From assembly GCA_036497565.1 (NCBI GenBank), contig DASXJE010000307.1, positions 1-32,680 of the forward strand: a stretch of DNA of 32,680 bases. The letters are read 5' to 3'. The stretch is from Mycobacteriales bacterium (GTDB taxonomy: Bacteria; Actinomycetota; Actinomycetes; Mycobacteriales; QHCD01). The notes under the pieces are model-generated. The model made no database searches. It saw only the letters and a list, made by a program, of their open reading frames with translations, and had not been told where the DNA came from. Within the stretch, counting starts at the first letter, position 1. Each line of letters starts with the position of its first letter. Positions 2,298 through 18,484 of the stretch are shown one piece after another. The translations under genes were made by a program, and so were the position numbers.

Positions 2298-2325
2298 GGT
2301 ACGACCAATACCGGCGTTCGGTTCA
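2298..2325 (-). promoter_or_regulatory. ECF (SigL-type) promoter of the cupredoxin gene
   Basis: Read on the minus strand, -35 TGAACC occupies 2325-2320, followed by a 16-base spacer and -10 CGTACC at 2303-2298. This matches the TGAACC/CGT pattern described for mycobacterial SigL promoters. Transcription would start around 2291, just before the ATG at 2289. Confidence 0.65.
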
Positions 2326-2333
2326 GTGAACCG
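2319..2333. repeat. 15-bp palindrome formed by two back-to-back -35 elements
   Basis: CGGTTCA-G-TGAACCG is a perfect inverted repeat around a single base. Each arm contains a TGAACC -35 element, one for each divergent promoter. Only one holoenzyme could occupy this site at a time, so the two promoters may compete. Confidence 0.8.
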
Positions 2334-2354
2334 CCGAAGCTCCGGCTCCGTGTT
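2327..2354 (+). promoter_or_regulatory. ECF (SigL-type) autoregulatory promoter of sigL-rslA
   Basis: TGAACC at 2327-2332, a 16-base spacer, and CGTGTT at 2349-2354 match the TGAACC-N16/17-CGTGTT pattern known for M. tuberculosis SigL. Transcription would start near 2361, about 13 bases before the GTG at 2374 and at the edge of the GAAGGGGGG ribosome-binding site. Confidence 0.7.
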
Positions 2355-2373: not shown

Positions 2374-2886
2374 GTGAGAGTGCCGCCTGAAGCCGATCTG
2401 ATGCGCGTGCTGCACGACGAGCACGCGTCCGCGCTGTGGTCGTACGCCATGCGACTGACCAGCGGAGATCGAGGTCGGGCCGAGGACGCCGTCCAAGAGA
2501 CGATGCTTCGGGCCTGGCGGCACCCCGAGGTCCTCGATTCGTCCCGAGGATCACCGCGGGGCTGGCTCTTCACCACCCTGCGGCACGTCGTCATCGATGA
2601 ATGGCGGGCTCGCAGCGTCCGGCCGGAGAAGGTGACCGACCGGGTCCCCGAAGTGAGCGTGCCGGACGCCGCCGACACCGCCGTACAGTCGTGGCTGGTG
2701 GCCGACGCGCTCCGGCAGCTGTCGCCGTCACACCGCGAGGTGCTCGTCGAGTGCTTCTACCGGGGAATGTCGGTCGCCGAGGCGGCCGCCCGGCTGGGAG
2801 TGCCCCCTGGCACCGTGAAGTCCCGAACACACTATGCGCTACGCGCCCTGAAACTGGCGCTCGAGGAGATGGGGGTGACCGCGTGA
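2374..2886 (+). CDS. sigL: ECF RNA polymerase sigma factor, SigL-like
   Basis: This is a two-domain ECF sigma factor of 170 residues. Region 2 contains EDAVQETMLRAWRH, with core-binding and -10 recognition helices around residues 10-80. Region 4 is LSPSHREVLVECFYRGMSVAEAAARLGVPPGTVKSR, a helix-turn-helix reading the -35 element. The GTG at 2374 sits about 3-5 bases after GAAGGGGGG; the in-frame GTG at 2380 is an alternative. The stop overlaps the anti-sigma start as GTGA, as in the mycobacterial sigL-rslA pair. The upstream promoter matches the SigL consensus, so the gene is probably autoregulated. The assignment to SigL rather than another small ECF group rests on the promoter and on the partner anti-sigma. 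Confidence 0.88.
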   Translation: MRVPPEADLMRVLHDEHASALWSYAMRLTSGDRGRAEDAVQETMLRAWRHPEVLDSSRGSPRGWLFTTLRHVVIDEWRARSVRPEKVTDRVPEVSVPDAADTAVQSWLVADALRQLSPSHREVLVECFYRGMSVAEAAARLGVPPGTVKSRTHYALRALKLALEEMGVTA

Positions 2887-3590
2887 CCTGCTTCTACAGC
2901 CACGACGGCGCCTCCTACGTGCTGGGTGCGCTCAGCCCGGAGGAGCGACACCGCTTCGAGGAACACCTGCCGACCTGCCCCACCTGCACCGCCACGGTGC
3001 AGGAGTTCTCCGGCATGCCCGGCCTGCTCGCCCGGATTTCGTCCGAGGAGGCGGCCGACTCCGGTGCCGAAGCCGAGCCGCCGCCACCCTCGCTGCTGCC
3101 CCGGCTCCTCACCCAGGTGCACCGGGAGCGCCGTAGCGCCCGCTGGCGGGTGGTGGCCGTGGCCGCCGCAGCCGCCGCGGTCGTCGGGGTCGGCGGTGCC
3201 GCCATCATTTCCTCCGTCGACGACCACCCGGCCGGCCACCCGTCGGTCTCGGCGGTCACCAGCCGGCTGTTCACCATGAAGGCCGTCAACGGCGCACCGG
3301 TGCAGGCGACCGTGCGGCTGACGGACAAGGCCTGGGGTACGGCGATCGACATGCACTGCACCTACAGCGGCGACGCCACCGGCAGCGGGGGCGGCTGGGG
3401 TGGCGGCGGCGTGCAGTACGTGCTCGTCGCGACCGATCGCAACGGACACCGCCAGCAGCTGGCCACCTGGAAGGCCCTCCCCGAGAAGACGGTCAAGGTG
3501 CCGACCGCGGTCGCCATGCCGCGCAGCCAGCTCTCGTCGGTACAGGTCACCACCGGCTCCGGCGAGGTCGTGGCCAACCTCGCGCTGTAA
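2883..3590 (+). CDS. rslA: Zinc-binding membrane anti-sigma factor, RslA-like
   Basis: This 235-residue protein has an N-terminal cytoplasmic anti-sigma domain with YVLGALSPEERHRFEEHLPTC and the zinc motif His28-x3-Cys32-x2-Cys35. One hydrophobic helix follows at about residues 84-108, then an extracytoplasmic domain with AWGTAIDMHC and QQLATWKALP patterns. Those patterns are shared with mycobacterial RslA and RskA-type sensors. It should hold SigL inactive until oxidation or loss of zinc releases it. The GTG at 2883 overlaps the sigL stop by 4 bases and was chosen over longer open reading in the same frame, which lies inside sigL. A glycine-rich GSGGGWGGGG insertion interrupts the extracytoplasmic domain. 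Confidence 0.88.
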   Translation: MTCFYSHDGASYVLGALSPEERHRFEEHLPTCPTCTATVQEFSGMPGLLARISSEEAADSGAEAEPPPPSLLPRLLTQVHRERRSARWRVVAVAAAAAAVVGVGGAAIISSVDDHPAGHPSVSAVTSRLFTMKAVNGAPVQATVRLTDKAWGTAIDMHCTYSGDATGSGGGWGGGGVQYVLVATDRNGHRQQLATWKALPEKTVKVPTAVAMPRSQLSSVQVTTGSGEVVANLAL

Positions 3591-3621: not shown

Positions 3622-3660
3622 CCTCCGGTGTGCGGATAATCGCCTATCCGCACCCGGAGG
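3622..3660 (+). promoter_or_regulatory. Hairpin sequestering the ribosome-binding site of the dehydrogenase
   Basis: CCTCCGG (3622-3628) pairs with CCGGAGG (3654-3660), and GTGCGGATA (3630-3638) pairs perfectly with TATCCGCAC (3645-3653). This gives a 16-bp stem with one bulged base (3629) and a 6-base loop. The 3' arm contains GGAGG, the only good Shine-Dalgarno sequence for the GTG at 3667. No run of T follows. It could act as a translational switch, as a terminator for rslA, or as both. Confidence 0.6.
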
Positions 3661-3666
3661 TTGCCC

Positions 3667-5607: not shown

Positions 5608-5685
5608 CCAAAACGCACTAGGAGTGCGTTTTGGGGGCCGGGCGCGGCGTGTCGCTGACCAAAACGCACTCCGAGTGCGTTTTGG
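5608..5685. repeat. Twin-palindrome element A (two CCAAAACGCACT hairpins)
   Basis: Hairpin 5608-5634 is CCAAAACGCACT-AGG-AGTGCGTTTTGG and hairpin 5659-5685 is CCAAAACGCACT-CCG-AGTGCGTTTTGG. Each has perfect 12-bp arms. They are separated by a 24-base linker containing CGGCGTGTCG (5645-5654). The reverse complement of the second copy differs from the first at only one of 27 positions, so the pair can also fold as a single long hairpin. The TTTT runs could make it a bidirectional terminator. Confidence 0.85.
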
Positions 5686-5739
5686 GCGGGCGCCGGGCTG
5701 GGCAAGCGCCGGGGGAGCGGCGGGTCGCCGCACCCTGGA

Positions 5740-5815
5740 CAAAACCCACTAGTAGTGGGTTTTGGACGGTCCGTACGGCGTGTCGTGGACCACAACCCAC
5801 TAGTAGTGGGTTTTG
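5740..5815. repeat. Twin-palindrome element B (two CAAAACCCACT hairpins)
   Basis: Hairpin 5740-5764 is CAAAACCCACT-AGT-AGTGGGTTTTG with perfect 11-bp arms. Hairpin 5791-5815 has the same arms with one mismatch (CACAACCCACT on the left). The 26-base linker contains CGTACGGCGTGTCGTG (5772-5787). The arms differ from element A at defined positions (CGCACT versus CCCACT) while the linker core is shared, so A and B look like paralogous copies of one repeat type. Confidence 0.85.
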
Positions 5816-5859
5816 TCCAGGCGTCCGACGGCTGGCGGGCCGGCGGCGCCGACGCTCGG

Positions 5860-18436: not shown

Positions 18437-18484
18437 GCTTGAACGTCACGTTCAAGCGATCTAGCCGCATGAACGTCACGTTCA
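18437..18484. repeat. Twin TGAACGTCACGTTCA palindromes
   Basis: The 15-base palindrome TGAACGTCACGTTCA occurs twice, at 18440-18454 and 18470-18484, exactly 30 bases apart. The first copy extends to 10-bp arms (18437-18457). They lie between the convergent ends of htpX and rfbA. They may act as a bidirectional terminator or be a dispersed palindromic repeat; no T-run follows. Confidence 0.8.

Follow-up and report, generated by a model that had tools for sequence, protein, structure and literature searches.

A cupredoxin or Rieske lipoprotein gene opposite sigL-rslA: predicted back-to-back SigL promoters in Mycobacteriales

The 32,680-nucleotide stretch of Mycobacteriales DNA analysed here (the window) contains, at 2298-2354, two predicted SigL-type promoters placed back to back, one directed toward sigL-rslA and the other toward a gene for a cupredoxin lipoprotein. 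We read this arrangement, with a probability of about 0.85, as an autoregulated SigL-RslA module with a local target, an exported redox metalloprotein; the steric exclusion between the two promoters would then simply follow, in this genome, from how short the spacer is, and would not be a conserved regulatory device.

The sigma factor module, the cupredoxin and the promoter pair

On the plus strand, sigL (2374-2886, GTG start, 170 aa) encodes an ECF sigma factor that scores 240.3 bits, against a cut-off of 202, with NCBIfam NF007227/PRK09645, which we take to be the SigL model; its best PDB match is Mtb SigL (6dv9_F, 6e-50), by a wide margin over other full-length solved sigma factors. The next gene (2883-3590, plus strand) begins with a GTG at 2883 that overlaps the sigL stop (GTGA) and encodes an RslA-like zinc anti-sigma factor, as indicated by PF13490 (zf-HC2) and by a match to Mtb RslA (PDB 3hug_B, 5e-12). 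Its N-terminal anti-sigma domain contains the HX3CX2C motif, H28-X3-C32-X2-C35 (HLPTCPTC, residues 28-35), and this motif, in the product of a gene that adjoins and overlaps sigL, marks it as an RslA-type zinc anti-sigma factor; the protein also has a hydrophobic segment that looks membrane-spanning. The family score and both structural matches agree, and bear out the identification of this pair as sigL-rslA in the first-pass annotation. Sigma-70 promoters and classical T-tract terminators were searched for near the locus, and none were found. Between rslA and the next gene, at 3626-3664, there is a long imperfect inverted repeat, CCTCCGG-TGTGCGGATA...TATCCGCAC-CCGGAGG, which is possibly a terminator that lacks a T tract; it received no score as a terminator.

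The cupredoxin gene is located on the minus strand (1882-2289) and codes for a lipoprotein of 135 aa with a lipobox cysteine, C20, and matches to PF13473 (1.9e-14) and PF00127 (1.4e-7). The complete His-Cys-His-Met ligand set of a blue (type-1) copper protein is present (H86, C121, H124 and M127). The best PDB match is amicyanin; amicyanin identity was set aside on the score with the NCBIfam equivalog TIGR02657, which is 39.4 bits against a cut-off of 110.2.

The intergenic region between the cupredoxin gene and sigL is 84 bp long. On its plus strand, TGAACC (2327-2332) is followed after 16 bases by CGT (2349-2351, within CGTGTT at 2349-2354), and the predicted promoter of sigL-rslA occupies 2327-2354; on the minus strand, TGAACC (2325-2320) is followed, again after 16 bases, by CGT (2303-2301, within CGTACC at 2303-2298), and the predicted promoter of the cupredoxin gene occupies 2298-2325. 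The two -35 elements stand head to head with 1 bp between them, in the arms of the palindrome CGGTTCA-G-TGAACCG (2319-2333; arms at 2319-2325 and 2327-2333, central G at 2326), and the earlier description of two back-to-back TGAACC-N16-CGT promoters whose -35 boxes form a palindrome is exact to the base. Markov shuffles of the window put the frequency of TGAACC-N15-17-CGT at about 1e-5 per base per strand, and one match on each strand within the 84-bp region is expected about 8e-7 times. The palindrome is weaker evidence than the motif pair: an inverted repeat with 7-bp arms is found anywhere in 84 bp with P of about 0.02, and short palindromes of such kind are ordinary across the whole window (24 found, about 18 expected).

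Other repeats were also seen in the window. Four inverted repeats without mismatches, of the form CAAAACGCACT..AGTGCGTTTTG / CAAAACCCACTAGTAGTGGGTTTTG, follow one another at 5608-5818, upstream of a gene named from its sequence as a Gfo/Idh/MocA-like dehydrogenase, and twin palindromes TGAACGTCACGTTCA, 30 bp apart (18440-18454 and 18470-18484), lie a short way downstream of an ORF with similarity, at its end, to an HtpX-like protease.

A genome-wide search for TGAACC-N15-17-CGT, proposed earlier as a way to define the regulon, proved uninformative, as the 94 matches are barely above the background of about 82 (expected as the average over spacings 6-26), and a regulon defined from the motif alone was rejected. 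What is informative at the locus is therefore where the motif stands and that it is conserved, rather than its mere occurrence. The leaderless form of the motif has five matches in the same genome, and the only convincing target among them is the cupredoxin gene (L195), the remaining four being ORFs that are short or have no recognised function.

Conservation in relatives and the nature of the divergent gene

SigL orthologues were gathered from named genomes and 100 relatives, and the 60 SigL loci with enough flanking sequence were scanned for TGAACC-N15-17-CGT in 700 bp on either side. Upstream of sigL, the motif is present on the sigL strand at 54 of the 60 loci and on the opposite strand at 27, counts of non-independent events in related genomes, several of which are incomplete MAGs, and of a sample in which some low-identity SigL loci (45-56%) may be paralogues; in the 700 bp downstream, used as a control, it is found at 1/60 and 0/60 loci, respectively. 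Of the 56 sigL-strand matches, 55 have a spacer of exactly 16, as do 26 of the 27 opposite-strand matches. Relatives thus keep both position and exact spacing, as is expected if the hexamer pairs are SigL-type promoters. Lack of conservation of the -35 and -10 elements had been named in advance as evidence against this claim; the motif is kept at 54 of 60 loci, and therefore the elements are conserved. The sequence match and this conservation also agree with a predicted autoregulatory promoter, as in the SigL subfamily. In several families (L116, L117, L120, L136, L139 and L178), a small ORF with multiple membrane spans is found between the promoter pair and sigL; it is probably co-transcribed with sigL, and the L116 copy has no Pfam match.

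The opposite-strand motif follows the type of the divergent gene. It is present at all six loci with a divergent cupredoxin gene, at 21 of 22 with a divergent gene for a Rieske [2Fe-2S] lipoprotein (Pfam Rieske), and at none of the 33 loci with neither partner. In 39 further loci, a hold-out set drawn from previously unseen genomes, the divergent motif is found at 19/20 loci with a Rieske partner versus 1/19 without a partner; pooling gives 46/48 loci with a metalloprotein lipoprotein partner versus 1/52 without (Fisher p = 7e-25, a statistic that ignores relatedness). Cupredoxins hold this divergent position in the nearest relatives, and most other families of the order have a Tat-type Rieske [2Fe-2S] lipoprotein there; on the SigL tree the partner label clusters by lineage, yet several changes are required. 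No Rieske gene of the partner type was detected at E<=1e-12 in G000, G009 and G022, genomes with the cupredoxin partner. At the sole partner-less hold-out locus with a divergent motif (L315, G245 C153), the divergent gene resembles that of a SAM methyltransferase. G049, a genome with no divergent cupredoxin or Rieske gene at sigL, has a different secreted lipoprotein gene near sigL, preceded by a leaderless SigL-type promoter (L196, C23:13396-13434).

The cupredoxin as SigL target, another claim of the first-pass annotation, gains from genes outside the locus. A predicted SigL-type promoter at the conserved spacing is found not only in 6/6 linked but also in 5/27 unlinked cupredoxin loci (G022 C45, G099 C374, G094 C12, G008 C1:266500 and G001 C57), where TGAACC-N16/17-CGT is followed by the ATG after 9-10 nt; under a simple model, five such cases have a chance of about 1e-18. 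Two of these genomes, G008 and G094, come from a family with a SigL closely similar to that of Mtb (tested for G008), and G001, a genome that is 86% complete, has no SigL orthologue at E<=1e-30. The unlinked promoters, as read from their sequences, are independent support for cupredoxin genes as predicted SigL targets. In two genomes (L209 and L210; G039 and G078), a gene for an RseB/LolA-like exported protein has a leaderless TGAACC-N16-CGT promoter and is a possible further SigL target.

These data bear on the alternative that only the sigL promoter is real, with the leftward match a chance by-product of the palindrome. The leftward promoter is a prediction from sequence, and its -10 element, CGTACC, has A at -11, where Mtb SigL favours G (PMC6372665); in the sigL-side promoters of relatives, A is as frequent as G at this position. 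Against chance, the leftward motif tracks the metalloprotein gene, is kept at gaps that leave no palindrome, and recurs at a fixed ATG distance in the unlinked cupredoxin genes, all of which makes this alternative barely credible. Motif, spacing and position together suggest that both promoters are SigL-dependent.

The gap between the promoters

In Mtb P-sigL, the -10 scaffold begins with CGTGTCAG, with T at -12 (PMC6372665). If start spacing follows that numbering, with the T at -12 placed at 2351 on the sigL side, the predicted +1 of sigL is A2363, and that of the cupredoxin gene would be the A of its ATG (2289), giving a leaderless mRNA; the CGT-to-ATG distance is 10-11 nt at each of the six loci of the cupredoxin type. 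With 74 bp between the two predicted start sites, and with the -35 boxes separated by 1 bp, two holoenzymes probably cannot occupy both promoters at once in this genome, and to this extent the earlier proposal of mutually exclusive promoters with built-in competition is plausible. Its general form did not stand, as the gap between the -35 elements is not constant: it is 1 bp here, the other loci of the cupredoxin type have 2, 9, 14, 22 and 45 bp, and those of the Rieske type cover a range of 1-104 bp. Exclusion is therefore plausible here and is no general design feature. The perfect palindrome is not conserved among relatives.

A conserved element, whether operator or exclusion device, would require a gap that is constant or, failing that, short. 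One could argue that the 1-bp gap has been selected, so that autoactivation of sigL and expression of the target exclude each other; the short distance between start sites here is in line with such an evolved switch, as are gaps of 1-2 bp that recur in several lineages (G000, L003, G005/G032, G048 and G146), and RNAP acting as a switch has a precedent in pLS20 (PMC4207663). Because of this recurrence, exclusion may operate in some genomes. The gap is nevertheless 9-45 bp in close relatives with the cupredoxin and up to 104 bp with Rieske types, so function survives without tight spacing; moreover, with one and the same sigma factor predicted to serve both promoters, exclusion would divide the output between them and not select a state. 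On balance, we find selection for competition unlikely.

Alternatively, a dimeric transcription factor, for instance of the MarR type, could use the palindrome as its operator, with the resemblance to -35 elements being secondary; a perfect 7-1-7 palindrome has the usual shape of an operator, and the MarR-type Rv0737 binds the Mtb sigL-rslA promoter fragment (PMC13002591). A dimer, however, needs fixed half-site spacing, whereas here the distance between halves varies between 1 and 104 bp and each half stays exactly 16 bp from its own CGT; loci that lack a divergent partner also have TGAACC at sigL, in a single copy. We rejected the operator as highly improbable, on the variable gap between the halves. 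The comparison thus separates what appears to be selected, two N16-spaced SigL promoters and a partner gene, from what is seemingly accidental, the perfect palindrome.

Proposed mechanism and comparison with known systems

Mtb RslA is a zinc-binding protein that loses its zinc, and with it part of its affinity for SigL, when oxidised (PMC2877774); Rip1 acts on SigL via RslA (PMC10449499), and the sigL promoter of Mtb is among those that SigL transcribes (PMC6372665). By analogy, RslA of the window would be inactivated by oxidation and/or regulated proteolysis, and the freed SigL-RNAP would transcribe sigL-rslA rightward from one TGAACC-N16-CGT and the leaderless cupredoxin mRNA leftward from the other, so that release of SigL would raise the module and the exported redox metalloprotein together. 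The slot for the local target would be filled by a small extracytoplasmic electron-transfer metalloprotein, cupredoxin or Rieske depending on lineage.

The first-pass annotation had proposed an extracytoplasmic copper or redox stress circuit. The copper-specific part is weakened, because the partner in most families is a Rieske Fe-S protein, and the common theme is therefore an extracytoplasmic redox metalloprotein; the redox part fits better, since cupredoxin and Rieske proteins share electron transfer outside the membrane. The exchangeable Cu/Fe-S partner points SigL toward envelope electron transfer or redox stress, a role compatible with the metal-related phenotypes of the rip1 and sigL mutants of Mtb (PMC10449499), and the conserved partner provides a small, directly testable set of SigL targets in relatives. 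More tentatively, and at somewhat less than even odds, extracytoplasmic electron transfer may be the core function of SigL in the order, with the slot beside its own promoter taking either a Rieske or a cupredoxin lipoprotein, functionally interchangeable under shared SigL control, that might contribute to the redox signal read by RslA.

None of the three elements, SigL-RslA, its autoregulation or a divergent target gene, is new in kind. In the open-access papers searched, we found no published linkage of ECF, cupredoxin and Rieske genes and no partner swap, and the back-to-back metalloprotein slot with Fe-S/Cu interchange is without precedent there.

The closest known system is that of Mtb, which has an orthologous sigma factor of the same subfamily (NF007227; PDB 6dv9), an RslA-type HX3CX2C zinc anti-sigma factor and an autoregulatory promoter with a -10 that begins as given above (PMC6372665). 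Its known targets are different, pks10 and Rv1139c (PMC6372665). Mtb-like relatives (family f8) have TGAACC-N16-CGT at the same place upstream of sigL but, unlike the window, no divergent cupredoxin or Rieske gene there; two genomes of this family do have an unlinked cupredoxin gene under a SigL-type promoter. Cupredoxins of the amicyanin and plastocyanin types are of the same fold family and have the same type-1 copper ligands, whereas the lipoprotein encoded in the window contains a long Ser/Ala linker and scores below the amicyanin cut-off. The actinobacterial Tat-type Rieske [2Fe-2S] lipoproteins, none of which was detected in this genome at E<=1e-12, occupy the same divergent position at the SigL promoter in relatives, despite an unrelated fold and a different metal. 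Finally, the rco and conjugation promoters of pLS20 likewise form a divergent pair too close for two RNAPs (PMC4207663); in that system the two promoters are of unequal strength, and the choice between them depends on a repressor/activator and on DNA looping (PMC4207663), whereas in the window both promoters are predicted to depend on the same alternative sigma factor, and their spacing is not conserved.
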